Below are positions 8,134 to 25,607 of a stretch of 64,000 nucleotides of DNA, one piece after another. The translations under genes and the position numbers were made by a program. Under the pieces are notes generated by a model, which saw nothing but the letters and a program-made list of their open reading frames with translations, searched no databases and was not told the DNA's origin. Every line of letters starts with the position of its first letter. Within the stretch, counting starts at the first letter, position 1. This DNA comes from Sphingobium lactosutens DS20 (GTDB taxonomy: Bacteria > Pseudomonadota > Alphaproteobacteria > Sphingomonadales > Sphingomonadaceae): contig NZ_ATDP01000110.1 of NCBI RefSeq assembly GCF_000445105.1, forward strand, positions 62,001-126,000, written 5' to 3'.

Positions 8134-8136
8134 GCC

Positions 8137-9189: not shown

Positions 9190-9199
9190 GGCATGAGAA

Positions 9200-9218
9200 C
9201 CGGGCGGCGACCGCCCGG
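9200..9218 (+). terminator. Hairpin after motB, possible terminator
   Basis: CCGGGCGG-cga-CCGCCCGG forms a perfect 8-bp GC stem just after the motB stop. There is no run of T after it, so it may be a transcript-stabilising hairpin or a Rho-assisted end rather than an intrinsic terminator. Confidence 0.4.
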
Positions 9219-9366
9219 GCCGCCGCCACGTCATGACATCCCCACCCTCCATCGCCTACGCCCCCCCGCCTGCTCGACCAAGCGCGGGCGGCACGGGATC
9301 GTCGGATGGATTGCGAACAGCCTCTCGCCATCGTCACTCCGCACCCATCGCTCTCGCCACCCCCAC

Positions 9367-9454
9367 CGTCATCCCCGCGAACGCGGGGATCCATATCCCG
9401 GCAATGCACCCGCTATGACGTCAGGAGATGGGTCCTTGTTTCCGCAGGAATGAC
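9367..9454. repeat. Paired-hairpin repeat, unit 1 of the repeat island
   Basis: A left hairpin reads CGTCATCCCCGCGAACGCGG followed by GGAT (CCCCGC-GAAC-GCGGGG stem). A decayed right partner at about 9426-9454 reads GATGGGTCC...CAGGAATGAC. Together they form the same two-hairpin unit as 9490-9580. No credible gene lies here; reading frames across these repeats in all phases are artefacts of their composition. Confidence 0.75.
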
Positions 9455-9489
9455 TGGGGTGGGTGGTTTGTGGACCGTGTGCTTCATAT

Positions 9490-9580
9490 CGTCATCCCCG
9501 CGCAGGCGGGGATCCATCTTCTCAGCACGGCACATGGGCGATAGTCGAAAGATGGGTTCCCGCGTTCGCGGGAATGACGA
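9490..9580. repeat. Paired-hairpin repeat, unit 2 of the repeat island
   Basis: CGTCATCCCCGCGCAGGCGG at 9490-9509 is matched by the inverted end GGGTTCCCGCGTTCGCGGG then AATGACGA at 9554-9580. Each end is a stem-loop and the two ends are inverted copies of one another, a REPIN-like arrangement about 91 bp long. A lone right half recurs at 40143-40172 near holC, so the family is dispersed. Confidence 0.8.
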
Positions 9581-9599
9581 AGAAGGGTGGAAATTTCTT

Positions 9600-9955
9600 C
9601 CGTCATGCCAGCGAAGGCTGGCATCTCAGGCGATGGCGCGCGGCGGGTACACCTACATCATGACCAACAAGGCTCGTGGCGTCCTCTACATTGGCGTTAC
9701 CGCCAATCTCGCCGCACGGGTGCTTCAGCATCGAAACGGCGCCGGATCGACCTTCTGCAAGAAATATGGCCTCACGGTCTCGTGTTGGCGGAGCCTCACG
9801 ATGACAGACGCTCGCCATTGCCCGCAAAAAGGCGCTCAAGGCCTGGAAGCGCGAATGGAAAATTCGATTGATCGAGGGCAGCAATCCAGATTGTCGCGAT
9901 CTGTCAGACCTCATTGCATGACCGCCCGAGATCCCAGCCTTCGCTGGGATGACGG
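9600..9955. mobile_element. Candidate element: GIY-YIG pseudogene bounded by inverted hairpins
   Basis: A 28-bp left end at 9600-9627 (CCGTCATGCCAGCGAAGGCT onward) and a right end at 9928-9955 are inverted copies with 26 of 28 matches. Each end is an 8-bp stem with a GAAG loop, and the two differences are compensatory (atGCCAGC/GCTGGCat against atCCCAGC/GCTGGGat), so both hairpins are kept. Between them lies only the decayed nuclease gene. Calling it mobile is inference: no target duplication was verified. Confidence 0.5.
9633..9921 (+). pseudogene. GIY-YIG nuclease domain protein, frameshifted
   Basis: The first frame reads MARGGYTYIMTNKARG then VLYIGVTANLAARVLQHR, the Tyr..YIG and Arg motifs of small single-domain GIY-YIG proteins (about 95 residues, YhbQ/UPF0213-like). 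At about 9780 the frame shifts and continues as VLAEPHDD; at about 9808 it shifts again and continues as AIARKKALKAWKREWKIR with LIEGSNPDCRDLSDLIA and a stop at 9919-9921. All three pieces are in the right order, so this is one gene with two indels. No product of normal length can be made. Confidence 0.85.
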
Positions 9956-10013
9956 CTGTGGGGGCGAGCCCAAGGCGCTACTGAATGACCGGTAGTGGTC
10001 GCTTCAAGACAAT

Positions 10014-10126
10014 CCTCCCCTGCAAGGGGAGGTGGCAATCCGAAGGATTGACGGAGGGGTGTCACGCTCTCGATAGGGCGATACCCCGCCACCACTTCGT
10101 AGTCCCCCTCCCCTTGCAGGGGAGGA
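10014..10126 (+). repeat. Second copy of the flgI-type palindromic repeat
   Basis: Starts CCTCCCCTGCAAGGGGAGG and ends CCCCTTGCAGGGGAGGA, so its two ends are themselves hairpins and mutual inverses. Blocks GACGGAGGGGTGTCAC and CGCCACCAC align with the copy at 3399-3519. Here it is intergenic, which supports the view that the flgI copy is an insertion. Confidence 0.85.
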
Positions 10127-10159
10127 AGATCCAGACCAAAGCAACAGCCGATTGCTAAT

Positions 10160-10187
10160 CGTCATGCCGGGCTTGACCCGGCATCCC
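10160..10187. repeat. Single REP-like hairpin
   Basis: CGTCATGCCGGGCTTGACCC followed by GGCATCCC forms ATGCCGGG-cttga-CCCGGCAT, an 8-bp perfect stem. It shares the CGTCAT lead with the other island hairpins. It is the last repeat before the response-regulator gene on the opposite strand and may stabilise or end that transcript. Confidence 0.65.
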
Positions 10188-10262
10188 GCTCCCTTCGCAC
10201 ACCGTCAAACACAGGTTCGAACACGGCCGGTCCCGCATGGACCGCACCGGCCGACGCTGGCC

Positions 10263-11066
10263 TCAGTGCACGAAGCGCGCCACCACGTCGCGGTAGGAGC
10301 GGCTGACCTTCACCTGCGCGCCGCTTTCCAGCACCAGGAAACATTCGCCATTGGTGTGCGGCTTCACCTGCCGCACCTGGCTTAAGTTGACGATGGTGGA
10401 GCGGTGGACGCGCTGGAAATTGCGCGGGTCCAGCCGCTTTTCCAGGTCTTTCATGGTTTCGCGCAGAATCAGCGAGTTGTCGGCGGTGTAGATACACATA
10501 TAGTCGCCGGCCGCATCGATGCGCTCGATCGAATCGACGTCGACGCGGAAAATCTGCCCACGATCCTTGATGTTGATGAGCTTTTCGAAGCGGTTGGACG
10601 CGGGCGCGCCATCCTCGCTCGCGGCGAAGTCGGTCATTGCCTGGGGCGCGACTTCGGCCAGCACCTCGCGCAGCTTTTCGACCTCCTGCACCTGCCGCTT
10701 TTCGGTCAGGCGCTGGCGCACCCGGTCGAGCGCGTCAGCCAGGCGCCCTTCCTCCACCGGCTTCATCAGATAATCGACCGCCTGCGCCTCGAATGCGCGG
10801 ATCGCATGGTCGCTATAGGCGGTGACGAAGATGAACAGCGGCGGCTCGACCTCCATCATGCCCTGGACGACGGAAAAGCCGTCAAAGCCGGGCATCTGGA
10901 TATCGAGGAACACAAGGTCGGGTTTGTGCGTCTTGATGGCGCGGATGGCCTCGCGGCCATTGGTGCAGGTTTCGACGATTTCGACATCCTCATGCGCTTG
11001 CAGACGCAGCTGAAGGCCCTGAATGGCCAGGCTTTCGTCGTCGACGAGGATTGTTCTGATGGTCAT
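10263..11066 (-). CDS. LytTR-family response regulator
   Basis: DNA-binding output half of a two-component system. Residues 1-120 are a CheY-type receiver with acidic pair DD at 9-10, phospho-acceptor Asp55 in FLDIQMPG and Lys102 in YLMKP. Residues about 165-267 are a LytTR domain with RIDAAGDYMCIY, FQRVHRSTIVNL and VSRSYRDVV. The start overlaps the stop of the upstream kinase by 4 nt (ATGA), so the pair is co-translated. The regulon is unknown; nothing adjacent looks like an obvious target. Confidence 0.93.
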   Translation of the reverse strand: MTIRTILVDDESLAIQGLQLRLQAHEDVEIVETCTNGREAIRAIKTHKPDLVFLDIQMPGFDGFSVVQGMMEVEPPLFIFVTAYSDHAIRAFEAQAVDYLMKPVEEGRLADALDRVRQRLTEKRQVQEVEKLREVLAEVAPQAMTDFAASEDGAPASNRFEKLINIKDRGQIFRVDVDSIERIDAAGDYMCIYTADNSLILRETMKDLEKRLDPRNFQRVHRSTIVNLSQVRQVKPHTNGECFLVLESGAQVKVSRSYRDVVARFVH

Positions 11067-12178
11067 GCGGCGACTTTCGATCTTTCATCCATGTTAAGCG
11101 GAATTTCGATGATGACCGAAAATCCGCCCGGCGTGGAACGCGTTTCGAAGCGCTGTCGTTCCCCGAAGGCCTGAATTAACCGGTCCCGGATGTTCGGCAG
11201 GCCAACGCCCGTTCCCTCGCTCATGGGAATGTGCGGCTTGATGGCGCCATCGTTCAATCCCGGCCCGGTGTCCGATACGATGATCCGGACATTTTCACCG
11301 GCAGGTTGCGCCGTGACCGTGATATCGGCCCCTTCCTCCTTGGGCGTGACCGCATATTTGATCGCGTTTTCGACCAGCGGCTGCAACAGCAGTGATGGCA
11401 GGCGCGCATGGGACACGGCGGGATCGATCACGAAGGACGGGCGCAGCCTATCCTCGAACCGCATCTTCTCGATCTCCAGATAGAGTTTGAGCGTCTCCAC
11501 CTCCTGCGCGATCGTCACCTGCGCGGTGGGTTCGTTGATCAGCGTGTAGCGCAGGAAGGAGGACAGGCGCGACAGCATCGCATTGGCCCGGTCGGTTTGC
11601 TTGAGCAGCACCAGCGTCGATATGCTGTTGAGCGTGTTGAACAGGAAATGGGGATTGAGCTGGTAGCGCAGCATCGCCAGTTGCGCGCTGGACGCCTGGG
11701 TTTCCAGTCGCGTGAGCTGGTCCGCCTGCTCCTCCACCGTCAGATAGAAATTGATCGCATAATAAAGCGCGGACCACGCGCCGATCAGCGTCACCGACAG
11801 ATAGAAAGCGCCCAGAAACAGCTGCACGCCCGCCGTATCGCCGCTGCGATTCTGGGTGGAAAAGACCCAGGCGTCGATGAACGCCACCAGGCCCGCAGCT
11901 AGCACCACGGTCAGGATCGACACGCCCCAGGTGACGATCGGCCGTTGTTTGAGCAGATAGCGGAACGCCACCGCCATAAGCAGCGTCACCGAATAGCCCG
12001 TCACCGTGGAAATCAGCACCGGGATCAGGCTGGAAAAGGATTGCCCGTTCGCGATGGTGGAGGACCCGCGCAGCAGGAACGCGCCGGCCCATCCGAGCGA
12101 TTGCAGGTTCCAGAAAGCGCGGTTCTTGTCAGCGAAAAAGGGCTGGGGCTGGATGCGGGTCACGGACATGGGGCCCAT
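11063..12178 (-). CDS. LytS/YehU-type sensor histidine kinase
   Basis: Membrane sensor kinase partner of the LytTR regulator. About four membrane helices lie between residues 30 and 145, followed by a short coiled coil, the His_kinase motif LRYQLNPHFLFNTLNS with His177, and a GHKL ATPase domain with LVENAIKYAV and SDTGPGLN, then GTGVGLPNIRDRL. There is no extracellular sensing domain, so it may sense within the membrane. Start ATG 12178; a second ATG three codons in (12169) is equally good. Confidence 0.92.
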   Translation of the reverse strand: MGPMSVTRIQPQPFFADKNRAFWNLQSLGWAGAFLLRGSSTIANGQSFSSLIPVLISTVTGYSVTLLMAVAFRYLLKQRPIVTWGVSILTVVLAAGLVAFIDAWVFSTQNRSGDTAGVQLFLGAFYLSVTLIGAWSALYYAINFYLTVEEQADQLTRLETQASSAQLAMLRYQLNPHFLFNTLNSISTLVLLKQTDRANAMLSRLSSFLRYTLINEPTAQVTIAQEVETLKLYLEIEKMRFEDRLRPSFVIDPAVSHARLPSLLLQPLVENAIKYAVTPKEEGADITVTAQPAGENVRIIVSDTGPGLNDGAIKPHIPMSEGTGVGLPNIRDRLIQAFGERQRFETRSTPGGFSVIIEIPLNMDERSKVAA

Positions 12179-12212
12179 GCCTATGCCATTATCGCCCGGT
12201 CGGGAAGCCGGC

Positions 12213-12695
12213 TCACGCAGCGGCGGCCGGTTCCTCAGCCATGGGCGTCACTTCATCGGTGCACAGCCATACCAGGTCGGCCAGGTCCAGCGTCCGCCCG
12301 TCATGCGCCTGGATGGCGATGGGGCGGATCGGCTGTCCGTCGCGCTTGTCGGCCAGCACTTGGCACGCCTGCGTGCCGCAGCCCCAGCGTTCGCCCCACT
12401 GGCGCAGCGCGATCATCGCGGGCGCCAGGTCCTGCCCCTTGGGCGTCAGGCGATATTCCACCTTGCGCCGGTCGCACTGCATCGGCTGGCGCACCAATAT
12501 GCCGTTTTCCACCAGCCGGGCGAGCCGGTTGGCCAGGATGTTGCGGGCGATGCCCAGGGTGGACTGAAATTCCTCGAAATGGCGGATGCCCGACAGGGCG
12601 CCGCGCAGGATAAGGAAGGACCAGCGTTCGCCCATCATCTCCAGCGCGCTGGGCAGCGCGCATTGTTCCAGATCCTGTGCCAGATTATGTTTCAT
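12213..12695 (-). CDS. HxlR-family winged-helix transcriptional regulator
   Basis: The 160 residues open MKHNLAQDLEQCALPSALEM and hold the HxlR-type winged helix: MMGERWSFLILRGALSG, RNILANRLARLVENGIL and DRRKVEYRLTPKGQDL. An early Cys (Cys13) sits where redox-sensing HxlR proteins have theirs. The C-terminal 45 residues are an extension beyond the usual 110-130. ATG 12695 is preferred over longer in-frame openings because family homology starts there. It is divergent from rel, with 110 nt between starts. Confidence 0.88.
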   Translation of the reverse strand: MKHNLAQDLEQCALPSALEMMGERWSFLILRGALSGIRHFEEFQSTLGIARNILANRLARLVENGILVRQPMQCDRRKVEYRLTPKGQDLAPAMIALRQWGERWGCGTQACQVLADKRDGQPIRPIAIQAHDGRTLDLADLVWLCTDEVTPMAEEPAAAA

Positions 12696-12805
12696 CTGTC
12701 CCACATATAGCGCAAGGCAACACCCGTTGCAAAATCGCCACCTTATTATCGCAACATGGCGTTTTTTTGTTGCACGACAAGAGGGTTCCAACACAATCGG
12801 CGGCG

Positions 12806-14911
12806 ATGCTGCGTCAATATGAACTTGTCGAACGGGTGAAGCGCTACGATCCGGATGCGGACGAGGCGATGATCAACCGCGCCTATGTTTTTTCGGTCCA
12901 GAAACATGGCTCGCAGAAGCGCGCCAGCGGCGACCCCTATTTCAGCCATCCGATCGAGGTCGCGGGCATCCTCACCGACTTCAACCTCGACGATCAGACC
13001 ATCGTCACCGCCCTCCTCCACGACACGATCGAGGATACGCTCGTCACCTATGACGAGATTGAGAGCGCCTTTGGTCCCGATGTCGCCCGCATGGTCGATG
13101 GCGTGACCAAGCTGTCCAAGATCGAGGCCATGTCCGAAAATGAGCGGGCGGCCGAAAATCTGCGCAAGTTCCTGCTCGCCATGTCCGACGACATTCGCGT
13201 GTTGCTGGTCAAGCTGGCCGACCGGCTGCACAATATGCGCACGCTGCACTTCATCAAGAACGAGGCCAAGCGCCGCCGCATCGCGCGCGAAACCATGGAC
13301 ATCTACGCCCCGCTGGCCGAGCGGATCGGCATGTACGACTTCATGCGCGAGATGCAGCTGCTCGCCTTTCGCGAGCTGGAGCCGGAGGCCTATGACAGCA
13401 TCACCCGGCGCCTCGAACATCTGAAGGAAGGCGGCCATGACAAGGTCGACCGCATCGGCGCGGAGCTGCAATTGCTGCTGGGCGGCAACGACCTGTCCGT
13501 GACCGTCTCGGGCCGCGAGAAACACCCTTATTCCATCTGGCGCAAGATGCAGGAGCGCCACATCAGTTTCGAACAGCTGACCGATGTCATGGCGTTCCGC
13601 GTCATCACCGACAGCACGGCCGACTGCTACCGCGCGCTCGGCATCATCCACCAGACCTTCAAGATGGTGCCCGGCCGCTTCAAGGATTATATCTCCACGC
13701 CCAAGCGGAACGGATACCGCTCGCTCCACACCACCGTCATCCATCAGGACAATGCCCGCATAGAGGTGCAGATTCGCAGTCGCGCGATGCACAATGACGC
13801 GGAACTGGGCCTTGCCGCCCATTGGGCCTACAAGCAGAAGGGCGACGCGACCGATCATCACGCCGCCTGGCTGCGCGACCTGGTCGAGATCCTCGAACAG
13901 AGCCAGGACGCGGACGAACTGCTCGAACATACCCGCATGGCGATGTATCAGGACCGCATCTTCGCCTTCACCCCCAAGGGCGAGCTGCACCAGCTGCCCA
14001 AGGGCTCCACGCCGGTCGATTTCGCCTATGCCGTCCACACGAGCCTCGGCAACCAGACCGTGGGGGCGAAGGTCAATGGCCGGGTCGTGCCGCTGCGCAC
14101 CTCCCTCGACAATGGCGATCAGGTCGAAATATTGAAGTCGGAAGGGCAGGAGCCGCAGCCCGGCTGGCTCTCCTTCGCCATCACCGGCAAGGCGCGCGCC
14201 GCCATCCGCCGCTTCATCCGCCAGAAACAGCGCGGGGAGGAGATCAAGCTTGGCGAGAAACTCTATGAGGAGATTATCGGCCGCTTCCCCGCCGATCTTG
14301 CCAGCGAACTGGGCGACAAGGCGCTGAAGGCCGCGCTCAAGCGCTTGAAGCTGGAGGATCGCGCGGCGCTGATGGTCGCCATCGCCACCCACCGCGTGCT
14401 CGACCATGAAGTGATGGAGGCGCTCGTCCCCGGCTCCACCAGCGCGCAGGGGATGGAGGATGTGCATCCGCGCCAGCATGAACCCGTGTCGATCCGCGGC
14501 CTCACGCCGGGCATTGCCTATAACCTTGGCGATTGCTGCCATCCCGTGCCCGGCGACCGCATCGTGGGCGTCCGCCGCACCGGCGCGCCGATCGAGGTGC
14601 ACACCATCGACTGCCGCTCGCTGGAGATGGAGCAGGATGACGACTGGGTCGATTTGAGCTGGGACAGCAAGTCCAAGGGCGGCACCGCCCGCCTCTCCGT
14701 CATCGTCAAGAACCAGCCCGGTGCGCTCGCCGCCGTCGCCAATGTCTTCGGCGCGACCAAGGCGAACATCCTGAACCTCCAGCTGGTCAACCGCGAAGGC
14801 CCCTTCCACACCGACATCATCGACCTGGAAGTGGCCGACGCCCAGCATCTGATGCGGATATTGTCGGCGCTACGGGCGATCGATGTCGTGGTGCAGGCGG
14901 ACCGGGTTTAG
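12806..14911 (+). CDS. rel: Bifunctional (p)ppGpp synthetase/hydrolase Rel (SpoT type)
   Basis: Makes and degrades the stringent-response alarmone. Order along 701 residues: an HD hydrolase domain with ALLHDTIED (His72-Asp73), a synthetase domain with RFKDYISTPKRNGYRSLH near 291 (RxKD form, typical of bifunctional enzymes), a TGS domain (FAFTPKGELHQLPKGSTPVDFAY), a zinc-finger/helical region with YNLGDCCHPVPGD, and a C-terminal ACT domain (NQPGALAAVANVFG). Both active sites look intact. ATG 12806 matches the family start; longer upstream openings run into the divergent promoter region. Confidence 0.97.
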   Translation: MLRQYELVERVKRYDPDADEAMINRAYVFSVQKHGSQKRASGDPYFSHPIEVAGILTDFNLDDQTIVTALLHDTIEDTLVTYDEIESAFGPDVARMVDGVTKLSKIEAMSENERAAENLRKFLLAMSDDIRVLLVKLADRLHNMRTLHFIKNEAKRRRIARETMDIYAPLAERIGMYDFMREMQLLAFRELEPEAYDSITRRLEHLKEGGHDKVDRIGAELQLLLGGNDLSVTVSGREKHPYSIWRKMQERHISFEQLTDVMAFRVITDSTADCYRALGIIHQTFKMVPGRFKDYISTPKRNGYRSLHTTVIHQDNARIEVQIRSRAMHNDAELGLAAHWAYKQKGDATDHHAAWLRDLVEILEQSQDADELLEHTRMAMYQDRIFAFTPKGELHQLPKGSTPVDFAYAVHTSLGNQTVGAKVNGRVVPLRTSLDNGDQVEILKSEGQEPQPGWLSFAITGKARAAIRRFIRQKQRGEEIKLGEKLYEEIIGRFPADLASELGDKALKAALKRLKLEDRAALMVAIATHRVLDHEVMEALVPGSTSAQGMEDVHPRQHEPVSIRGLTPGIAYNLGDCCHPVPGDRIVGVRRTGAPIEVHTIDCRSLEMEQDDDWVDLSWDSKSKGGTARLSVIVKNQPGALAAVANVFGATKANILNLQLVNREGPFHTDIIDLEVADAQHLMRILSALRAIDVVVQADRV

Positions 14912-15048
14912 GGAGCCAATATCCCAACCCATCTGCCATCGACAGCGATTTCGCTGCGACGGGCGGACGCCCGGATGACGCTGACACAGAGGGCTATTCA
15001 CTTCACCTCCACCCCCGCTCAGTTTGGCATCGACATCCGGGCTTGACA

Positions 15049-15070
15049 AAAATCTACATAGGTAGATTTT
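15049..15070 (+). promoter_or_regulatory. Perfect palindromic operator at the padR promoter
   Basis: AAAATCTAC-ATAG-GTAGATTTT has 9-bp perfect arms and abuts the padR ATG at 15071. A -35-like TTGACA at 15043-15048 directly precedes it, so the palindrome covers the spacer and -10 region. A bound regulator would block RNA polymerase. PadR proteins often repress their own operon through palindromes of this size, so autoregulation is the simple reading. The closeness of promoter and start suggests a leaderless or near-leaderless message, perhaps from the ATG at 15077. Confidence 0.75.
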
Positions 15071-15388
15071 ATGCCCATGCCCCGAACGCGCAAACTTTCA
15101 CCCCATGCCCGGACATTGCTCGCCGTGCTGCTCGAAGCGGGTCGCCACTGGTCGCACGGCTATGAGCTGGCACGGCTTGCCGACCTGAAGTCCGGCACGC
15201 TCTATCCGCTTCTGATCCGTCTGGAGAAGCAGGGCTATCTCGATGCGGAATGGCAGCCGCCGTCCGAAGCGGGACGACCGCCGCGCCATGCCTATCGGCT
15301 GACAGCGAGCGGCGTGGAGCTCGCCCGCGCCAATCCGCCTGCTGATCCCGTCCCGCCTGCCGGCCGACGCCGGGAGGCTACCATATGA
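15071..15388 (+). CDS. PadR-family transcriptional regulator
   Basis: The 105 residues are a bare PadR winged helix: LSPHARTLLAVLLEAG, HGYELARLADLKSGTLYPLL, IRLEKQGYLDAEW and GRPPRHAYRLTASG, the family's signature order. The long C-terminal dimerisation helix of larger PadR proteins is missing, as in the subfamily that precedes membrane proteins with a permease-prefix-like region. The start codon touches a perfect palindrome, pointing to self-repression. The 3' end overlaps the membrane-protein gene by 4 nt (ATGA). Confidence 0.92.
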   Translation: MPMPRTRKLSPHARTLLAVLLEAGRHWSHGYELARLADLKSGTLYPLLIRLEKQGYLDAEWQPPSEAGRPPRHAYRLTASGVELARANPPADPVPPAGRRREATI

Positions 15389-16563
15389 GTGCTGGCCTTC
15401 GTCGCGGTCTGACCGACCTCGCCTGCCGTGCGCTTCTGGCCGCGCTGCCCCCCGCACTGAAATCCTGGGGATGGGCGGTGCGGTGTGAGGCCGCCAGCAT
15501 CCCCGACGACAGCAGGGCGCTGCTGTTCGCACTCCACAGCCTCTGCGGGCTGATGCCCCGCGCCATCGCATTGCAGCTGTTTCGCCCCTTCGCCGCGCTA
15601 TGCGGCCGGGCTGATCCTCTGTCCGAAAGATCGACCGCCATGCTTTTATTAGGCGCCGCAATGCATCGTCCCCGCGCTCTTGGCATGGGCTGCGCCATCG
15701 GCGCTGTTGCGCTCGGCCTTTATTACCTCGCGATCGCGGGCGCGCCGATGCGCTACATCGGCATCAATGCAGGCGCGCTTGTGATCGGCCTCGCTATGCT
15801 TGGGCTATTCGGCCGCGCCGTGACAGCGCGCCATCCCTGGGCCGGCGGCGCGATCTTCGCGATGGCTGTGGCGCTGCTCGCGACCGCACTGTTCGGGTCG
15901 CCGGTCGGGGGCGCGGCGCGATGGGTCAGCGTCGGCGGGTTCGCCATTCAGCCCAGCCTGATCCTGTTGCCGGTCATGCTCCTCATATTTGGACAAACCC
16001 GCGGCAGCTGGGCAACCGCCGGTATCGTCGTGGCCGCTGCCGCCATGGCGCTTCAACCCGACCGCGCGATGGCCGCCATGCTCGCATCATGCCTTGCTGT
16101 CTTGATGGTCACACGTCGCGACCGGCATAGCATAATTGCCTCCGTCGCCAGTGTAATCAGCCTCGCGGCAACATTCCTCCGCATCGATACGCTGCCGGCG
16201 GTCCCCTATGTCGATCGCATCCTCTATTCCTCTTTCGAGATTCACATGGCTGCCGGTCTGGCGGTGTCTGGGGGCTTGGTGCTGCTCCTGATCCCGGCGA
16301 TCGCCGGTGTGCGTCGCGATCCCGAATATCGCGCGACCTATGCCGTTTTCGCCGCAATCTGGTTCGTCGCGATCATGGCGGCTGGGCTCGGCAATTACCC
16401 GACCCCGGTCGTCGGATATGGCGGCAGCGCCATCATCGGTTATCTGCTGAGCCTTCTGGCGCTGCCTGGACGGGCGGACGTTACCGCCCCGGCCCATTCC
16501 AGGACGGGCAGCGCCACGGATGACCTGTCGTCCGACGGGCAGCTGCGCCTTGCGCTGGCCTGA
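15385..16563 (+). CDS. Divergent SEDS (FtsW/RodA-like) membrane protein with permease-prefix-like N-terminus
   Basis: Residues 1-80 are a soluble helical region (LTDLACRALLAALPPALK, EAASIPDDSRALLFAL) resembling the prefix of PadR-linked permeases. Residues 85-360 are hydrophobic and carry FtsW/RodA landmarks in order: GGAARWVSVGGFAIQPS (175-191), LQPDRAMAAML (223-233), LPAVPYVDRILYSSFE (270-285) and PTPVVGYGGSAIIGYLL (339-355). Asp277 falls where SEDS glycosyltransferases have their essential loop Asp, with Glu eight residues on as in them. SEDS proteins polymerise peptidoglycan with a class B PBP; none is adjacent, so the substrate is open. Coupled to padR (ATGA) and 4 nt before the esterase gene. 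Confidence 0.7.
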   Translation: MSAGLRRGLTDLACRALLAALPPALKSWGWAVRCEAASIPDDSRALLFALHSLCGLMPRAIALQLFRPFAALCGRADPLSERSTAMLLLGAAMHRPRALGMGCAIGAVALGLYYLAIAGAPMRYIGINAGALVIGLAMLGLFGRAVTARHPWAGGAIFAMAVALLATALFGSPVGGAARWVSVGGFAIQPSLILLPVMLLIFGQTRGSWATAGIVVAAAAMALQPDRAMAAMLASCLAVLMVTRRDRHSIIASVASVISLAATFLRIDTLPAVPYVDRILYSSFEIHMAAGLAVSGGLVLLLIPAIAGVRRDPEYRATYAVFAAIWFVAIMAAGLGNYPTPVVGYGGSAIIGYLLSLLALPGRADVTAPAHSRTGSATDDLSSDGQLRLALA

Positions 16564-16567
16564 CCCC

Positions 16568-17503
16568 ATGATGTCCTTCGCCGCTTGGGGCAGGCTCTAC
16601 CGCTGGGGAAGGCTGTTGCTGGCACGCCCCTATCGAAAATGGGTCATCGCGGCCCTTGTTGCCACCCTGATCTACATGCTGTGGGGAGAGGTGACGCGGA
16701 CGCGGGGCGCTCAACGGGTGTCGTTCCGGCCGGCGCAGGAGGCATGTGGCAGCGCGGGACCGCTTTACTATTGCGTCTATCGCGATCGGCGGGGGACGAA
16801 TGGCGATGTCGTCTACCATATGCATGGTCGCAACCTCGACGAGCGCATCTGGAACGACGACACCTATATGACGGCCTTGATCCAGTCGGAATGGCAGCGG
16901 CGTCCCGAGCTGCCACCGACGGTCGTGACCATATCCTACGGCTCTACCTGGCTGCTGACGCCGAAAGGGCAGAAATCCGACAGCGGGTTGCTGGATGATC
17001 TGATGACCCGTCTGCCGGCAATCGAAACGAAGATCGGGCGTCCGCGTCGGCGTCTGTTGCTGGGTGAATCGATGGGCGGGCTCAACGTCCTGATCGCCGG
17101 CCTGTCCTACCCCACGCGCTTCGCCAAGATCGCGGCGCTATGCCCCGGTGTATATGCGACCTCGCCATTCGCGTCCTTGTCTACCATCCGCCAGACCATC
17201 CAGCGCACAGGCGCAAACCCCAAAGTCATCTTTGGCATATGGATGATGGCGCGAAAATATGCGGCGAACGACGCCGAATGGCAGCGGGTCTCCCCTCTCG
17301 CCCTAATCGAACGGACAGGCCCTGCCTATCCGGCGCTCTACCTGTCGAACGGACTCTATGACATTTATGGTAATTTCGAGGGCACGCAGCGGCTCGTCGA
17401 CAGGGCCCGCCAGCGCGGCGTCAGGACGCAGTGGCGTCCGCTCTATGGCGGGCATTGCGCTATGGACGCAGCGTCGGTGGCGGCATTTCTTTTGTCGAGA
17501 TGA
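16568..17503 (+). CDS. Membrane-anchored alpha/beta-hydrolase (esterase-D-like)
   Basis: A 311-residue protein with one N-terminal membrane segment (about 25-40) and an alpha/beta-hydrolase domain. The nucleophile elbow is GESMGG with Ser168; VVYHMHGR (81-88) supplies the oxyanion-hole region. The likely acid is Asp265 (GLYDIYG) and the base His296 (GGHCAMD). The fold resembles feruloyl/S-formylglutathione esterases, but the substrate is unknown. ATG 16568 lies 4 nt after the SEDS-like gene, so it is the third gene of the PadR cassette and may act on the same envelope substrate. Confidence 0.8.
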   Translation: MMSFAAWGRLYRWGRLLLARPYRKWVIAALVATLIYMLWGEVTRTRGAQRVSFRPAQEACGSAGPLYYCVYRDRRGTNGDVVYHMHGRNLDERIWNDDTYMTALIQSEWQRRPELPPTVVTISYGSTWLLTPKGQKSDSGLLDDLMTRLPAIETKIGRPRRRLLLGESMGGLNVLIAGLSYPTRFAKIAALCPGVYATSPFASLSTIRQTIQRTGANPKVIFGIWMMARKYAANDAEWQRVSPLALIERTGPAYPALYLSNGLYDIYGNFEGTQRLVDRARQRGVRTQWRPLYGGHCAMDAASVAAFLLSR

Positions 17504-18164
17504 TCGTCCAGATGGGCAAGCGCGGGTAAAAACCGGAGAGGCCGGGATTGTCGGGCTTCACGTAAGGTGCCTGCATCCTATTCCCCTTCCCTAATAGGAT
17601 TTTCTCTGGTCTATCCTTGTCGATGGACCAGCCCGCCGCCTCGCCCGCTTTTTCCCGCCCCGTGCTTCCGAACTTCCCTCCCCTTACAGCTGTCGCTTCG
17701 TGGTCGCCTCATGGTCGCTTGGGCGTCGCGTCGCTTCCGGTTTTTCCATGTTTTGCGTCGGCGGACCCCCGACGACACTGTGAACTTCGTAGGAGAAATT
17801 CCGTCGCCCCCTCTTACGCCGCGCATGCCCCTACCAGCCCCCGCGCCAGATTTGGCGTGACAATGCCGGCCGCTTTCGCTAAGGGCGCACCCGCAGGCCG
17901 TGGCAGCGATGCCGTCGGCCTTCCGTCCGAGACAGTCGGTGAAGGGAATATGCCCTTCTTAATGCCCGGCCTAGACGGGGAAAAGCTCTTTACCGGACGG
18001 GCGCTCGCCCGATTCGGGTCTGCCTGTTCCTTTTGGGGTTCCAGGCCGGTTGATCTCTCCCCTTCGGACTTTGTGCCCCGTGCGCCTACCCGGCGTGCGG
18101 GTTTTGAGCCGTCCTGGCGCGGGCCTTCACCGGCGCTGCGCGGGACATGAAGTGGAGTAATGGC
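17504..18164. other. Long non-coding stretch upstream of rplJ
   Basis: About 660 nt without a convincing gene. It should contain the rplJL promoter and leader. One visible stem has CTGGTC near 17606 pairing with GACCAG near 17629, and a GC-rich run of hairpins lies between 18060 and 18150 just before the L10 start. A regulatory L10-type leader is expected from known biology, but I could not match a consensus. Open frames on the plus strand here lack ribosome sites and family features. Confidence 0.5.
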
Positions 18165-18680
18165 ATGGATCGTAATCAGAAAGCTGAGGTCGTTTCCGCG
18201 CTGAACGCAGAGCTGGCAGAAGTTGGCGTGGTCGTCGTGACCCGCAACCTCGGCATGACCGTCGCCCAGTCGACCGTCCTGCGCCAGAAGATGCGCGACG
18301 CCGGTGCGTCCTACAAGGTTACGAAGAACCGCCTCGCCCGCATCGCCCTTGATGGCACCGACTATACCGCGCTGAGCGACATGCTCACCGGTCCGGTCGG
18401 CCTGGCCACCTCGGTCGATCCGGTCGCCGCCGCCAAGGTTGCGATCGATTTCGCCAAGACCAACGACAAGCTTGAGATCGTTGGCGGCGCGATGGGCGAA
18501 GTGCTGCTCGATGCAGAGGGCGTCAAGGCGCTCGCATCGATGCCGTCGCTGGATGAACTGCGTGCAAAGCTGGTCGGCCTCATCGTCGCGCCCGCTACCA
18601 AGCTCGCAACCGTCACCCAGGCGCCGGCCGCGCAGCTTGCGCGTGTCTTCAACGCCTATGCGGAGAAGGAAGCGGCCTGA
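18165..18680 (+). CDS. rplJ: 50S ribosomal protein L10
   Basis: Anchors the L7/L12 stalk on the large subunit and binds 23S rRNA. The 171 residues contain KAEVVSALNAELAEVGVVVV, VTKNRLARIAL and GPVGLATS, all L10 hallmarks, with a C-terminal helix (ATKLATVTQAPAAQLARVFN) that docks L7/L12 dimers. ATG 18165 with GGAG at 18154-18157 gives the right N-terminus (MDRNQKAEVV). rplL follows after 69 nt. Confidence 0.97.
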   Translation: MDRNQKAEVVSALNAELAEVGVVVVTRNLGMTVAQSTVLRQKMRDAGASYKVTKNRLARIALDGTDYTALSDMLTGPVGLATSVDPVAAAKVAIDFAKTNDKLEIVGGAMGEVLLDAEGVKALASMPSLDELRAKLVGLIVAPATKLATVTQAPAAQLARVFNAYAEKEAA

Positions 18681-18749
18681 GCCGTTCGCCCTCCGATTTT
18701 TTGACCCAAATCTGACGGGGCATATCGCCCCAAACAAGGAACTAAACAC

Positions 18750-19127
18750 ATGGCAGACATCAACGCTCTGGTCGATCAGCTTTCGGCCCTCACCGTCCTC
18801 GAAGCCGCCGAGCTGTCCAAGGCTCTGGAAGAAAAGTGGGGCGTTTCGGCCGCCGCCGCCGTCGCTGTCGCTGGCCCCGCCGGTGGCGCCCCGGCCGCTG
18901 CCGCTGAAGAAGTGAAGGACGAATTCGACGTCATCCTGACCGGCGACGGTGGCAAGAAGATCAACGTCATCAAGGAAGTCCGCGCCATCACGGGCCTGGG
19001 TCTGACCGAAGCCAAGGCGCTGGTCGAAGGCGCGCCCAAGGCTGTCAAGGAAGGCGTGAACAAGGAAGAAGCCGAAAAGCTCAAGAAGCAGCTGGAAGAA
19101 GCCGGCGCGACCGTCGAGCTGAAGTAA
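18750..19127 (+). CDS. rplL: 50S ribosomal protein L7/L12
   Basis: Stalk protein that recruits and stimulates translation GTPases. The 125 residues show the N-terminal dimerisation helices ([20 protein letters not shown]), an Ala/Gly-rich hinge (about 37-52), and the C-terminal factor-binding domain with [27 protein letters not shown] lies upstream of ATG 18750. Usually rpoB follows, but here an intrinsic terminator and xerC follow, so the stalk genes form a stand-alone operon. Confidence 0.98.
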
Positions 19128-19200
19128 TCGGCCAGGCGTTCGCGCGGGGGTATGCCTTCTCGCGAACGCGCCGATCCGGCCTATTGCGGCCGGGACAAAG

Positions 19201-19238
19201 AAAGGGCGGCGCCGTCAGGGCGCTGCCCTTTTCGCTTT
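19201..19238 (+). terminator. Intrinsic terminator of rplJL
   Basis: AAAGGGCGGCGCC-gtcag-GGCGCTGCCCTTT pairs as 13 bp with one G-U, and is followed by a short T-rich tail (TTCGCTTT). It lies 73 nt after the rplL stop. Confidence 0.8.
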
Positions 19239-19299
19239 CATGGGACGCGCGATTCGCGTGTTCCCTTCCTGCCCCGCCTCCCTTATCCTGGCGCGGCCC

Positions 19300-20196
19300 A
19301 TGTCCGCTTCCTCCGCCCTCATCGAACGCTGGCGCGCTCATCTCGCCCTCGACCGCCGCCGGTCGGTCCACACCGTCCGCGCCTATCAGGCCACCGCTGA
19401 AAGGCTGGTCGCCTTCCTGGAACAGCATCGCGGCGAGGCGGTGACGCAGGCCATGCTGGCGAGCCTGGAGCAGGCCGACCTGCGCGCCTTCCTCACCAGC
19501 CGGCGCCACGATGGCATCGGCAATCTCTCCGCCGCGCGCGAGCTTTCGGCGGTCCGGGGTTTCCTCGCCTTCACCGGCGGCGAGGATGCCAGGCCCCCCC
19601 GGCTCAAGGGACCAAGGGTCAAGCGCGGCCTGCCCCGCCCCGTCTCCCCCGACGAAGCCATGGCGCTGGCCGCCGACATCGCCGAAACCGCCCGCGAAAA
19701 CTGGATCGGCGCCCGCGACTGGGCAGTCCTCCTGCTGCTCTACGGCGCGGGCCTGCGCATCGGCGAGGCAATGGGGCTCACTGGCGCGGTCTGGCCGCTG
19801 GGCGACACGCTGCGCGTCACCGGCAAGCGCGGCAAGACCCGGCTCGTGCCCCTGCTGCCGCAACTGCGCGAAGCCATCGAAAGCTACGTCGCCGCCTGCC
19901 CCTATCCGCTGGAGCGCGACGCCCCGCTGTTTCGCGGCGCACGCGGCGGCCCGCTCTCCCCTGCGCTGATCCGTCGCGCCGTGCAGGGGGCACGCGGCCG
20001 CCTAGGCCTGTCAGAGCGCACTACGCCCCACGCCCTGCGCCACAGCTTCGCCACGCATCTGCTGGGTCGCGGCGCGGATTTGCGCAGCCTGCAGGAACTG
20101 CTGGGCCATGCCAGCCTGTCGTCCACGCAAATCTATACGCAGGTCGACGCCGCCCATCTGCTCGACATCTACCGCAACGCCCATCCCCGCGCCTGA
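19300..20196 (+). CDS. xerC: Tyrosine recombinase XerC
   Basis: Resolves chromosome dimers at dif together with XerD. The 298 residues have an N-terminal SAM-like core-binding domain (LIERWRAHLALDRRRSVHT) and a catalytic domain with Arg153 (GAGLRIGEA), Lys in GKRGKTRLVPL, His244 and Arg247 (HALRHSFATHLL), His270 (GHASLSS) and nucleophile Tyr279 (QIYTQV). All catalytic residues are intact. ATG 19300 gives a family-length protein; an in-frame ATG at 19240 would add 20 non-conserved residues. It ends 4 nt from the convergent dedA stop. It looks like a housekeeping Xer and not an island integrase. Confidence 0.93.
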   Translation: MSASSALIERWRAHLALDRRRSVHTVRAYQATAERLVAFLEQHRGEAVTQAMLASLEQADLRAFLTSRRHDGIGNLSAARELSAVRGFLAFTGGEDARPPRLKGPRVKRGLPRPVSPDEAMALAADIAETARENWIGARDWAVLLLLYGAGLRIGEAMGLTGAVWPLGDTLRVTGKRGKTRLVPLLPQLREAIESYVAACPYPLERDAPLFRGARGGPLSPALIRRAVQGARGRLGLSERTTPHALRHSFATHLLGRGADLRSLQELLGHASLSSTQIYTQVDAAHLLDIYRNAHPRA

Positions 20197-20200
20197 CCCT

Positions 20201-20800
20201 TCAGCCGCGCGGCCGCCAGGTCGCCAGACGCCAGAGATAGAAGATCACGGCACCGACCACGCACACGCTCGCCGCCGGACCCAGATAGCGGTCGATATCC
20301 TGGAAATGCCGCCCCAGCGCAAAGCCGGCATAGGCAAGGATGATGTTCCAGATCAGCGCCCCGCCAGCCGTCCACAGCAGGAAGCGGATATGACCCATGC
20401 GAAACAGACCGGCGGGCAGCGATATCATAGTTCGAAACGCCGGCAGGAAGCGGAACACGAAGACGACGATCTGTCCATATTTGCCGAACAGGCGATCCAG
20501 CGCCTCGACATCGCGCCACTCCAGCGTCGCCCAGCGGCCATAACGATCGACCAGCGGCTTCAATCGCTCGAACCCCAGCATATGCCCGACCAGATACCAG
20601 AAATAGTTGCCGATCGTGGTGCCCAGCGTCCCGGCCAGCAGCAGCCATTCCATCGCCATCCGCCCCTGCCCGACGCGAATGCCGCCAATCCCCATGATGA
20701 GTTCGGACGGGATGGGCGGAAAGACATTTTCCAGCACCATGAGGAAGCCGATGCCCCAATAGCCGCCCGCGTCGATCAGGCGCAGAACCCAGTCGGTCAT
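20201..20800 (-). CDS. DedA-family membrane protein
   Basis: A 199-residue polytopic protein of the DedA/SNARE-associated family, whose members are thought to translocate lipids and keep envelope homeostasis. Motifs: GFLMVLENVFPPIPSELIM (about 18-36), GTTIGNYFWYLVG (60-72), and FVFRFLPAFRTMISLPAG (113-130) with the conserved Arg pair. Four to five membrane helices are visible. It sits 62 nt downstream of gshB on the same strand and may be co-transcribed. Confidence 0.93.
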   Translation of the reverse strand: MTDWVLRLIDAGGYWGIGFLMVLENVFPPIPSELIMGIGGIRVGQGRMAMEWLLLAGTLGTTIGNYFWYLVGHMLGFERLKPLVDRYGRWATLEWRDVEALDRLFGKYGQIVVFVFRFLPAFRTMISLPAGLFRMGHIRFLLWTAGGALIWNIILAYAGFALGRHFQDIDRYLGPAASVCVVGAVIFYLWRLATWRPRG

Positions 20801-20862
20801 GTCAGCGGCTCATGGTCTGGAAAAGGGATCACCGCGGCTCAACGCGCCAAGCGCCAGTCCGT

Positions 20863-21837
20863 TCAGTCCGCCGCCCGCGCCGCCAGCCGCACGTCGATCG
20901 CGTCCCAGATCATCCCGCCGGTGTCCGTGCCGTCGAACGCCTCGATCGACACGATGCCGGTGGGCGAGGTGACGTTGATTTCCGTCAGCCATTCGCCCCC
21001 GATCACGTCTATGCCCACAAACAGTAGCCCGCGTGCCTTGAGCTCCGGTCCCAAGGCGGCGCAGATTTCCCTTTCCCTGTCAGTAAGTTCTGTCTTGGCC
21101 GCCGATCCGCCAACAGCCAGGTTCGACCTAATTTCGCCCTTGCCCGGTATGCGGTTGACCGCGCCCATCACCTCGCCATCGACCAGCACGATGCGCTTGT
21201 CCCCTTCCGCGACGCCGGGGATGAAGGCCTGCACCATGAAGGGTTCGACCCATTTCTCCTTGAACAATTCGACCAGCGAGGACAGGTTCGCCCCGTTCGC
21301 GCCGACATGGAACACGGCGACGCCGCCATTGCCGTAAAGCGGCTTGACCACGATCTCGCCATGTTCCGCCAGGAAGCTTTTGACCTCGGCCAGGTCGCGG
21401 GTGATCATCGTGGGCGGCATGAAGTGCGCATAATCGAGCACGAACAGCTTTTCGGGCGCATCGCGCACGCTTGCGGGATCATTGACCACCAGCGTTTCGG
21501 CCTGCACCCGCTCCAGCAAATGGGTGGCGGTGATGTAGCTAAGGTCAAAGGGCGGGTCCTGCCGCATCAGCACCACGTCGACATCGCGGCCCAGGTCCAG
21601 CATCTCCCAATCGCCCAGCACGAAATGATCGCCCTGCACTTTCTGCACCTGCACCGGCCGCGCCTTCGCCAGCACCCGGCCGTCGCGATAGGTGAGGTCG
21701 GGCGCGAGGTAATGATACAGCTTATGCCCGCGCGCCTGCCCAGCCAGCATGATGTGGAAGGTCGAATCGCCGGCGATGTTGATCCCGTCCATCGGGTCCA
21801 TCTGCACCGCGACGGTCAGGGGGTTGAATTGCGTCAT
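20863..21837 (-). CDS. gshB: Glutathione synthetase
   Basis: ATP-grasp ligase joining gamma-glutamylcysteine and glycine. The 324 residues begin with the GshB N-terminal domain (VAVQMDPMDGINIAGDSTF), then the ATP-grasp core with LYGNGGVAVFHVG and RIVLVDGEVMGAVNRIP. The metal-binding segment is GIDVIGGEWLTEINVTSPTG. ATG 21837 has GGAAGG 8 nt upstream; the alternative GTG three codons earlier (21846) does not have a properly spaced site. It lies in the conserved rsmI-yraN-gshB order. Confidence 0.96.
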   Translation of the reverse strand: MTQFNPLTVAVQMDPMDGINIAGDSTFHIMLAGQARGHKLYHYLAPDLTYRDGRVLAKARPVQVQKVQGDHFVLGDWEMLDLGRDVDVVLMRQDPPFDLSYITATHLLERVQAETLVVNDPASVRDAPEKLFVLDYAHFMPPTMITRDLAEVKSFLAEHGEIVVKPLYGNGGVAVFHVGANGANLSSLVELFKEKWVEPFMVQAFIPGVAEGDKRIVLVDGEVMGAVNRIPGKGEIRSNLAVGGSAAKTELTDREREICAALGPELKARGLLFVGIDVIGGEWLTEINVTSPTGIVSIEAFDGTDTGGMIWDAIDVRLAARAAD

Positions 21838-21882
21838 TCCAAACACCTTCCACTCACAAGGACAGGGCGCGGCAGGCCGCCG

Positions 21883-22236
21883 TCACCCCCCATGCCAGAC
21901 ATTGGCCAGATGGCGCGGCGGGCGGCCCGGCGCAAGGAGGATGACGTCTATTCGCATATCGTCCCCCGGCTTCGCCAGATCATGCCAGAGGATTTCGGCC
22001 GCCGCCGCAACCCGCGCCAGACGGCGTTCGTCGATCGCCAGGTCAAGCTCCGCTGCATTCGCCCGCGCCTTCACCTCGACAAAGGCGATCATCGCGCCGC
22101 GCCGCGCCACTATGTCGACTTCACCTGCGCGCGTGCGCATCCGGCGGCCGACAATCTGCCACCCCTTGAGCCGCAGCCACCAGGCGGCGATGCGCTCGCC
22201 CTGCCGTCCGCGCTGATCCGCCTGGGCGCGGCTCAT
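21883..22236 (-). CDS. yraN: YraN-family (UPF0102) nuclease-fold protein
   Basis: A 117-residue member of the UPF0102 family, a restriction-endonuclease-like fold implicated in DNA processing. GERIAAWWLRLKGWQIVGRR (about 13-32) is followed by the Asp/Glu-x-Lys catalytic signature, TRAGEVDIVARRGAMIAFVEVKAR (Asp at about 42; Glu and Lys in VEVK). It overlaps the upstream rsmI stop by 4 nt, an arrangement widely conserved in proteobacteria. Confidence 0.92.
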   Translation of the reverse strand: MSRAQADQRGRQGERIAAWWLRLKGWQIVGRRMRTRAGEVDIVARRGAMIAFVEVKARANAAELDLAIDERRLARVAAAAEILWHDLAKPGDDMRIDVILLAPGRPPRHLANVWHGG

Positions 22237-23075
22237 CCCTTTAGGTCCATCGCCCGGTCATAGAGAGTCCGGCGGTCAAGCCCCAGCTTCTTGGCGACCT
22301 CGCCAGCGGCTTTCGACACGGGCAGGCGCGTCATTGCCTCCAGCAGGGCAGCGTCGGCATCCTCCGCACTGGCCGGGGGCGCTTCGCCGGGCGGCCCGAC
22401 TATGACAACGATCTCACCCTTGGGCGGCGTATCGGCGTAGCGCTGCGACAGGGCAGTCAGCGTGCCCGTCGCCGTTTCCTCGAACGCCTTGCTGATCTCC
22501 CGGCTGACGGCGGCATCCCGATCGCCCAGATGCACGGCCATCGCCGACAGGCTGTCGGACAGGCGCGGCCCGCTTTCGTAGAAGACCAGCGTCGCGCGCA
22601 GCGCCGCCACTTCGCCCAGCACATCGCCCCGCGCCTTGGCCTTGGCCGGCAGGAAGCCCATGAAAAGGAAGCGGTCAGTCGGCAGCCCCGAGAGCGTGAG
22701 CGCCGCGATCACCGCGCTGGGGCCGGGCAGCGTCGTCACCTTGCGTCCCGCCGCGCGTGCGTCGCGCACAAGTTTGTAGCCAGGATCGGAAATGAGCGGC
22801 GTGCCCGCGTCCGACAGCAACGCCACCGATTCGCTCGCCATCCGCTCAACCAGCCGCTGGCGCACATGATCGGCGCTGTGGTCGTGATAGGGCAGCATCG
22901 TCCGGTCAGACCCGGCATGGCGCAGCAGGCGGGCGCTGACCCGCGTATCCTCGACCGCGACCACGTCGGCCCGCCGCAATATCTCGGCCGCGCGCGGGGT
23001 CAGGTCTCCAAGGTTGCCGATCGGCCCCGCGACGATGTAAAGCCCGGGCTCCAGCCCAGAAAATTCAGTTTCCAT
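22233..23075 (-). CDS. rsmI: 16S rRNA (cytidine-1402-2'-O)-methyltransferase RsmI
   Basis: SAM-dependent tetrapyrrole-methylase-fold enzyme that 2'-O-methylates C1402 in the ribosomal P site. The 280 residues contain GLYIVAGPIGNLGDLTPRA (12-30), VVAVEDTRVSARLL (38-51), LLSDAGTPLISDPGYKLV and LPGPSAVIAALTLSGLPTDRF, the RsmI signatures. Its start is only 11 nt from the start of the divergent lipoprotein gene at 23087, so the two promoters must lie within each other's coding region or one start is further in. Confidence 0.95.
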   Translation of the reverse strand: METEFSGLEPGLYIVAGPIGNLGDLTPRAAEILRRADVVAVEDTRVSARLLRHAGSDRTMLPYHDHSADHVRQRLVERMASESVALLSDAGTPLISDPGYKLVRDARAAGRKVTTLPGPSAVIAALTLSGLPTDRFLFMGFLPAKAKARGDVLGEVAALRATLVFYESGPRLSDSLSAMAVHLGDRDAAVSREISKAFEETATGTLTALSQRYADTPPKGEIVVIVGPPGEAPPASAEDADAALLEAMTRLPVSKAAGEVAKKLGLDRRTLYDRAMDLKG

Positions 23076-23086
23076 AAGGACGCCAG

Positions 23087-24292
23087 ATGACAGAGACGGA
23101 TGCCCCCCGGCAAGCGAACATCTTCGCTTCGATGAAGCGCGGTGCGCGCGTCGCCTTCATGGGCGCGGCCCTGTTCCTGGCCGCCTGTCAGTCGATCGTG
23201 CCCAAGGCACCGGCCCCCACCACGCCTACGACGCCCACGCGGCCGACCACCCCCGAAGTCGTCCAGGGCCTGCCCACCGACACAGCCCGCCACCGCGTCG
23301 CGCTACTGGTGCCGATGAGCGGCGCCAATGCCGGCGTAGGCCAGTCGATCGCGAACGCCACGACGCTGGCGCTGCTGGACACCAAGACCGACAAGGTGCG
23401 CATCACCACCTATGACACGGCGATGGGCGCAGCGGCCGCCGTGAACAAGGCGCTGGCCGATGGCAACCGGCTGATCCTGGGACCGTTGCTGGCGGAAGAT
23501 GCGCGGGTCGTGGGGCCGATCGCGGCGCGGGCGGATGTGCCGGTCATAAGCTTTTCCAACGACAGCAGCGTCGCGGGCAACGGCGTCTATATCATGGGCT
23601 ACAACCCCAACCAGTCGATCGAGCGGGTGGTCGATTTCGCGCGCGCCAAGGGGCTGAGCCAGTTCGGCGCGCTGGTGCCGCGCGGCACCTATGGCGAACG
23701 AGCGGGCAATGCGATGCTGCGCGCAGTCGAGCAGGCCGGCGGGACCGTCGTGTCGATGCAGACATTCGACCGATCGGCAGGATCGATCGCCGCGGCGGTC
23801 AAGGCATTGCAGGCGTCCTCCAGCTATGACGCCCTGCTGATCGCCGATTCCGGACGCGTCGCGTTGCAGATCGCGCCGATCCTGCGCAAAAATGGTGGCG
23901 GCAGCGCCCGGTTGCTGGGCACCGAATTGTGGAATGCGGAACCATCGCTTGCCAGCAATCCGGCGCTGCGCGGCGCTTGGTTCGCCAGCGTCTCGGATGG
24001 CCTTTATCGCCAGCTCGTCGCCAAATATCGCGCCCGGTACGGGTCGGCGCCATTTCGTCTGTCGTCGCTCGGCTATGACGCGGTGTTGCTGACGGTGCGT
24101 ATCGCGCAGCAGTGGAAAGCGGGCGCACCCTTCCCCGCCGCCCGCCTACGCGACGCGGGAGGATTTTCCGGTATCGACGGCGCCTTCCGCTTCACCCGCA
24201 CGGGCGTTGCCGAACGCGCTCTTGAAGTCTCGGAGGTCGGCGCGGGCAATTTCACCGTCATCGATCCCGCCCCGCGCGGCTTTGGCGAGTGA
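23087..24292 (+). CDS. LpoA-like penicillin-binding-protein activator lipoprotein
   Basis: A probable outer-membrane lipoprotein with a periplasmic-binding-protein fold (LppC/LpoA family), which in enterics activates PBP1a. Residues 19-34 are a hydrophobic signal ending in the lipobox LAAC. The folded part starts RHRVALLVPMSGANAGVGQS and includes VISFSNDSSVAGNGVYIMGY, as in type I binding proteins. ATG 23087 has AGGA upstream; ATG 23132 (MKRGARVAFMG) would give a more usual signal-peptide length and a wider gap to rsmI. It is often divergent from rsmI in proteobacteria, as here. Confidence 0.85.
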   Translation: MTETDAPRQANIFASMKRGARVAFMGAALFLAACQSIVPKAPAPTTPTTPTRPTTPEVVQGLPTDTARHRVALLVPMSGANAGVGQSIANATTLALLDTKTDKVRITTYDTAMGAAAAVNKALADGNRLILGPLLAEDARVVGPIAARADVPVISFSNDSSVAGNGVYIMGYNPNQSIERVVDFARAKGLSQFGALVPRGTYGERAGNAMLRAVEQAGGTVVSMQTFDRSAGSIAAAVKALQASSSYDALLIADSGRVALQIAPILRKNGGGSARLLGTELWNAEPSLASNPALRGAWFASVSDGLYRQLVAKYRARYGSAPFRLSSLGYDAVLLTVRIAQQWKAGAPFPAARLRDAGGFSGIDGAFRFTRTGVAERALEVSEVGAGNFTVIDPAPRGFGE

Positions 24293-24367
24293 GAAGCAGC
24301 TGGCGGCTTGCCCGCATCCGATCCGTTTGCCTGTCTGTGCAAGCCCTGACCGGAAAGAGCTGAACCC

Positions 24368-25597: not shown

Positions 25598-25607
25598 TCT
25601 GAGCGCC

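Follow-up and report, generated by a model that had tools for sequence, protein, structure and literature searches.

The stretch analysed here, hereafter the window, spans 64,000 nucleotides of the Sphingobium lactosutens DS20 contig NZ_ATDP01000110.1 and raises the following question: what would a sphingomonad do with a divergent homologue of the peptidoglycan polymerases RodA and FtsW (SEDS proteins) encoded between a PadR-family repressor and an esterase? A first-pass annotation had read the three genes as a possible inducible system, not described before, for the synthesis or modification of an envelope polymer. Located 3' of a near-palindromic operator, they come in the order PadR gene, SEDS-like membrane protein gene and anchored PF00756 esterase gene, with the following features in window coordinates.

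14912..17901 (approximate ends), unstranded: extra DNA between relA and the rplJ-side block, absent from 17 of 29 compared genus loci
15043..15048, forward strand: -35-like box TTGACA; of 26 upstream regions, 23 have TTGAC here and 2 have TTGCA
15049..15070, unstranded: inverted repeat AAAATCTACATAGGTAGATTTT, putative operator for PadR; pairs with itself at 20 of 22 positions, TC[TG]A-N6-T[AC]GA in 25 of 26 upstream regions
15077..15388, forward strand: PadR-family repressor, 103 codons; PF03551 at E 5.9e-12, relatives align from 15077
15385..15642, forward strand: prefix domain predicted by the model, residues 1-86 of the SEDS-like protein; occurs also on proteins without a SEDS core
15385..16563, forward strand: SEDS-like membrane protein, 392 aa; predicted SEDS fold at residues 87-368 (15643-16488)
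16213..16215, forward strand: Asp277 codon, counterpart of the RodA catalytic Asp; Asp in 23 of 23
16568..17503, forward strand: membrane-anchored PF00756 esterase, 311 aa; PF00756 at E 8.9e-11, hydropathy, alignment

The tight packing initially described agrees with these coordinates: the PadR stop (15388) overlaps the next ATG (15385) by 4 nt, and a 4-nt gap separates the stop of the SEDS-like gene (16563) from the hydrolase ATG (16568). An operon led by PadR was also correctly recognized, the first of the three products lying above the family cut-off (PF03551, 45.9 bits vs 27); an alternative PadR start is possible at 15071. The operator had been called a perfect palindrome; the palindrome is there, its perfection is not, two of the 22 positions failing to pair. 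In the window, its consensus with up to 3 mismatches occurs in a single place, the operator itself, and none of 100 shuffles gave two such matches (mean 0). Searched in the genome of origin with up to 2 mismatches, the 16-base core was found at the operator and as one two-mismatch sequence on three other contigs, and the reversed control gave zero matches. When the 26 upstream regions of SEDS-linked PadR genes were compared, the repeat stood at the same place, 3' of the TTGAC or TTGCA box, in all except that of L038, which has no operator repeat, and TAGGTAGA was present in 19 of them. Because the operator overlaps the promoter and the start codon is very near, this layout suggests autorepression by PadR, perhaps with a leaderless transcript. 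The PadR protein itself is short past the wing (window 15314-15385), with scant space for the long dimerisation helix that small PadR proteins presumably possess.

SEDS homology of the middle protein, as first annotated, is borne out by profiles and fold together. The family profile PF01098 does match it, but under the cut-off (18.8 bits vs 26.4, E 8.5e-4), and it matches 21 of the 23 aligned members, the window protein included, at E up to 1 (best 1e-6). Profile-profile comparison (hhalign) with eight RodA/FtsW proteins of the order gave a probability of 96.3% and E 1.6e-9 over residues 99-242 only, and a search of the PDB with the middle-protein profile reached E. coli RodA at E 3.7e-6. We then compared an AlphaFold2 model (mean pLDDT 77) with known folds. 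The top seven rows were all RodA/FtsW (Z 15.7-17.9, RodA 17.9), followed by the O-antigen ligase WaaL as the first non-SEDS protein (Z 10.9); Foldseek ranked 6bar (RodA) best, at E 1.4e-3 and probability 1.00, with no match under 1e-3. Model residues 87-368 align structurally onto RodA residues 6-359. Since the full SEDS fold would be contained in this region, the prefix is predicted to be an added domain, and the earlier idea that it stands in place of the first helices has to be abandoned. A phmmer search of the PDB with the middle protein gave 4 sequences, all ATPases and no SEDS protein among them (best E 3.8e-5, residues 183-269), and the NCBIfam search also returned a Mg-transporting ATPase (E 0.0018). 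This P-type ATPase family was rejected as a chance helix match because family profile and fold indicate SEDS; no confident match to a non-SEDS permease was found, the fold match being SEDS even though phmmer gave only ATPases.

To what extent the active site persists was scored on a joint MAFFT alignment of 23 prefix-bearing relatives. The loop aspartate singled out at first, Asp277, which precedes the last three helices, is invariant (23/23), as are Arg179, Trp180, Gln189 and Asp226, and P274 is kept in 22 of 23. By alignment, R179, W180, Q189, D226, D277 and P274 would correspond to R101, W102, Q111, D159, D262 and P257 of E. coli RodA, positions for which the mutational section of the RodA study describes lowered or abolished activity in each case (PMC10449877). 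The Glu eight residues after Asp277, proposed as a second landmark, fared differently: Glu285 is Glu in only 2 of 23. Neither Glu nor Lys is found in any of the 23 at the positions matched to RodA Glu114 and Lys117 (the QPSE..K pair), whose mutation is described there as having a modest effect in vitro and a severe one in B. subtilis SpoVE (PMC10449877). The D226-D277 spacing is 51 in 23/23, vs 96-102 in 8/8 canonical proteins, hence 45-51 residues shorter, and the Arg matched to E. coli Arg210 lies, according to the alignment, in the missing segment. The position of the catalytic Asp is that of the MAFFT alignment, the hhalign match ending at residue 242. Of the 25 prefix-less homologues, 23 have Glu in place of D277 and 19 have His in place of Q189. 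The lack of a class B PBP partner reported initially was confirmed: with the transpeptidase (PF00905) whose gene adjoins that of RodA in this genome as tblastn query, 55 loci and positions 8001-26000 of the window gave no match at E 1e-3, and the positive control was found. Altogether, the middle protein has in common with RodA/FtsW the fold (87-368), the catalytic Asp and the RW, Q, QPD and YGGS landmarks, but it scores below the family cut-off, no longer has counterparts of QPSE..K and Glu267/268, possesses a shorter segment before the Asp and has no PBP neighbour. The N-terminal prefix is a feature of the middle protein without RodA/FtsW counterpart.

What could then be the role of this prefix, which the model folds into three consecutive helices (3-20, 23-38 and 42-72)? 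We gathered 51 SEDS-like loci, selected by rank and by hand, 26 with the prefix and 25 without. A PadR gene lies directly upstream at 25 of the 26 prefix-bearing loci, the last one, L069, holding a remnant (E 0.022), and PadR is found near none of the 25 prefix-less genes (within 2.5 kb or the shorter available flank); because the loci share descent, these counts do not represent independent events. PadR was searched for with a profile made from 20 such proteins belonging to the prefix clade. A prefix-only profile, run on 147 genomes of the order, gave 9 matches, one of them in the window and the others at 8 loci spread over 7 further genomes. The latter encode hydrophobic proteins of about 200 aa without SEDS core (hydropathy computed for L161 only), and all 8 follow a same-strand PadR gene; a TCTA half-site together with a box reading TTGAC or TTGCA is present in 8/8, the full 14-bp repeat in 4/8. 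In the class, 3 of 308 genomes matched, the genome of origin and two with marginal matches lacking PadR, which we judged to be chance. From this comparison, a domain that partners with PadR is a better reading of the prefix than a remodelled N-terminus.

No searched model recognizes this domain convincingly among the Pfam, NCBIfam and PDB entries covered. Against HAAS and DUF1700/DUF1129/DUF1048, nothing was obtained at E<=1 with alignment A2 (23 of the 26 prefix loci, leaving out the near-copy L035 and the broken L069 and L077, as well as fragments L037-L039) or at E<=10 with alignment A7 (6 of the 8 non-SEDS prefixes, leaving out L162 and L168), HMMER filtering weak matches. The GxP motif of the kinked third helix reads GLMP in near relatives and is lost in distant ones. 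Proteins of the perm_prefix_1 family (NF038403) are presumably linked to PadR and likewise carry a short prefix before a membrane domain; they differ in that their model has zero matches in the genome of origin. At L161-L168 (about 1130-2140), the pairs of PadR and prefix-membrane protein without SEDS core are accompanied by related operator-like repeats. Eight prefix-less SEDS-like genes (L102, L104-L106, L112, L114, L116 and L120, about 6800-7830) encode proteins of about 270-280 aa; no PadR was found there, and the gene directly 5' resembles, by eye, a dihydrolipoyl dehydrogenase gene.

The hydrolase announced as third gene product is indeed a PF00756 protein, above the family cut-off (42.5 bits vs 22, the longer frame from 16520 being searched), with a hydrophobic stretch at about residues 25-43. 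By motif only, Ser168, Asp265 and His296 are the likely triad: GESMGG, YD and GGHC occur in five aligned esterases, L093 ending before the last two, and the pLDDT of the model is 45. In the PDB, neither the profile nor the sequence search went beyond weak matches to esterases or hydrolases. At E 1e-20 the esterase was found in 4 of 396 genomes of the order, adjoining a SEDS-like gene in 4/4, and within these 396 genomes it is confined to the cassette; Sphingomonas dokdonensis and Sphingomonas sp. LC-1 also retain it. The three genes do co-occur, as expected for a cassette, the esterase being kept in place at 6 of the 26 prefix-bearing loci, one copy (L093) being truncated; remnants exist in L069 and L081. 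Weak esterase-like matches in L073, L074 and L083 (E 0.003-0.96), which arise in part because the query overlaps the terminal part of the SEDS-like gene, were left uncounted. On the SEDS tree (23 rows), esterase presence requires 5 changes; counting the L081 remnant as present lowers this to 4. It would therefore have been lost or gained repeatedly and is, judging from gene content, an optional partner of the cassette.

The cassette is accessory. A SEDS-like search matched 86 of the 396 genomes of the order (up to 4 candidates scored per genome), and 40 of the 85 other matching genomes were examined with their flanks; as the 45 weaker ones were left out, the prefix-bearing copies are present in at least 17 of 396 genomes. 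A class-wide search at E 1e-12 returned the genome of origin only, among 385, and a scan of genome contigs restricted to two peptide patterns found 12 loci, among them the prefix-less Hyphomonas copy L080. The distance from relA to the rplJ block is 67-769 nt in 17 of the 29 compared genus loci, vs 2926-3011 nt in the window; 2 of the remaining loci have the rplJ block elsewhere and 10 show no block within the 1.5-kb flank. The GC content of the region (0.649 vs 0.642 for the window) is not unusual. Repeats across 14880-17960 include nothing convincing at the ends as terminal repeats of an element, and a phage origin was discarded, no phage record matching at E 1e-5. When neighbours at 30 loci were clustered, nothing recurred in three loci or more except the esterase and a single unidentified gene, the latter at three loci and at different distances; flanks are shared by L034/L035 and by L077/L083, which are near relatives.

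The architecture is known in kind. For Listeria, a PadR together with a helical domain placed N-terminally of a membrane domain of FtsW/RodA type has already been published (PMC6624303, PMC11237479). According to the account of the Lmo0421 operon, this system resembles ours by the presence of PadR and a divergent SEDS homologue in one operon, and the Listeria PadR mainly controls the operon in which it lies; it differs by beginning with an ECF sigma factor gene, and that account reports no esterase (PMC6624303). The likeness to Lmo0421 is one of description only. The 2019 results further state that Lmo0421 could substitute for none of FtsW1 and the RodA proteins, and that six wall antibiotics gave no change (PMC6624303). 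With the Listeria architecture in print, the view of the cassette as an undescribed polymer-synthesis system is not supported. The section defining HAAS-PadR dyads indicates that PadR is invariably found next to HAAS and names fusions to FtsW/RodA/SpoVE, citing the Listeria paper (PMC11237479). The dyads resemble the cassette by an N-terminal three-helix domain on multi-TM proteins and an adjoining standalone PadR gene, whereas the cassette prefix has neither a profile match nor the GxP motif, and the conserved PadR operator and the esterase are cassette features absent from that section (PMC11237479). In Elizabethkingia, an operon of PadR and a membrane protein is described as tied to vancomycin resistance (PMC10812688). 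We found no published account of a sphingomonad SEDS-PadR-esterase cassette in the literature searched. The cassette is a real, conserved accessory operon, and what is new is its occurrence in a sphingomonad form, the prefix unrecognized by the models searched, the conserved operator, the relA-rplJ insertion and an esterase seen only with the cassette (396 genomes).

One would then wonder what benefit such an operon provides. The cassette probably senses or answers envelope stress, and we give about an even chance to an autoregulated accessory envelope-response switch combining PadR with a repurposed, SEDS-derived membrane module. Comparison of the loci supports a PadR with a conserved, putative operator over its own promoter, encoded with a prefix-SEDS membrane protein. 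PadR would repress its own operon, and the prefix would be cytoplasmic and dock on PadR; SEDS N-termini face the cytoplasm. The prefix would relieve PadR repression once the SEDS core encounters a signal from the envelope, for instance membrane disturbance, an inhibitor or an intermediate linked to undecaprenyl. The core could be a ligand-binding module or an enzyme acting on a substrate other than lipid II; it would not be a second RodA or FtsW, because the surroundings of the catalytic Asp are kept while other conserved residues and part of the loop are lost. Where retained, the esterase may be a periplasmic effector that strips an acyl or similar group. To our knowledge, sphingomonad envelopes lack ordinary LPS. 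Against such a switch, the prefix has no HAAS-type match, the full repeat occurs in half of the 8 non-SEDS loci and the esterase is mostly missing; the residues kept near Asp277 are also compatible with an active enzyme. If true, HAAS-PadR-like membrane signalling would extend to sphingomonads, a SEDS fold would have retained its catalytic centre while shedding other parts of the enzyme, and the role of non-canonical SEDS proteins would become testable in an environmental bacterium. A more specific and rather doubtful proposal is that a peptidoglycan-polymerase fold has become the repressor's membrane sensor, a PadR-docking domain coupling the SEDS ligand pocket to transcription and the esterase editing the sensed feature. 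In this proposal, the docking domain, not recognized until now, would be common to otherwise different sphingomonad membrane proteins, and the esterase would be dedicated to its task.

Another hypothesis, which we consider unlikely, is that an active SEDS-type glycosyltransferase makes or modifies an envelope polymer once a small ligand relieves PadR, the esterase trimming the product. The invariance of the catalytic Asp and its neighbours would support it, as would a next-best fold, WaaL, that is likewise an enzyme of undecaprenyl-linked glycans, and an esterase linked to the cassette wherever present. However, the Glu114/Lys117 counterparts are lost in 23/23, Glu285 in 21/23 and 45-51 residues before Asp277; there is no PBP-like neighbour, no polysaccharide genes recur at the 30 clustered loci (neighbours not annotated one by one), and the PadR-linked prefix is left unexplained. 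Quite improbable, in our opinion, is a drug-insensitive protein that, once induced by a natural-product inhibitor, stands in for the housekeeping SEDS proteins or acts as their decoy, the idea discussed by Hauf et al. for Lmo0421 (PMC6624303). PadR control, the SEDS fold, a patchy accessory distribution and the relA-rplJ insertion speak for it, the loss of RodA/FtsW features and the above-mentioned Lmo0421 results against it. Finally, one could imagine that the cassette is selfish or in decay and has no function today, given the broken, cut or remnant copies L038, L039, L069, L077 and L129, and L037, partly at a contig end. We regard this as very improbable: the three genes are open in the window, the operator is intact, and dN/dS is 0.14-0.37 in nine pairs, with 0.19-0.37 for five SEDS-like pairs (one with a dS of 0.02, one including the broken L077), 0.26 for one PadR pair and 0.14-0.17 for three esterase pairs. 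The copy L129, whose surrounding 15 kb contain neither PadR nor prefix, is carried by a Sphingomonas hankookensis plasmid (NZ_CP117027.1, 6717-9819), where the esterase adjoins a SEDS-like gene matching from residue 98, near an IS3 transposase gene and polysaccharide-type genes.
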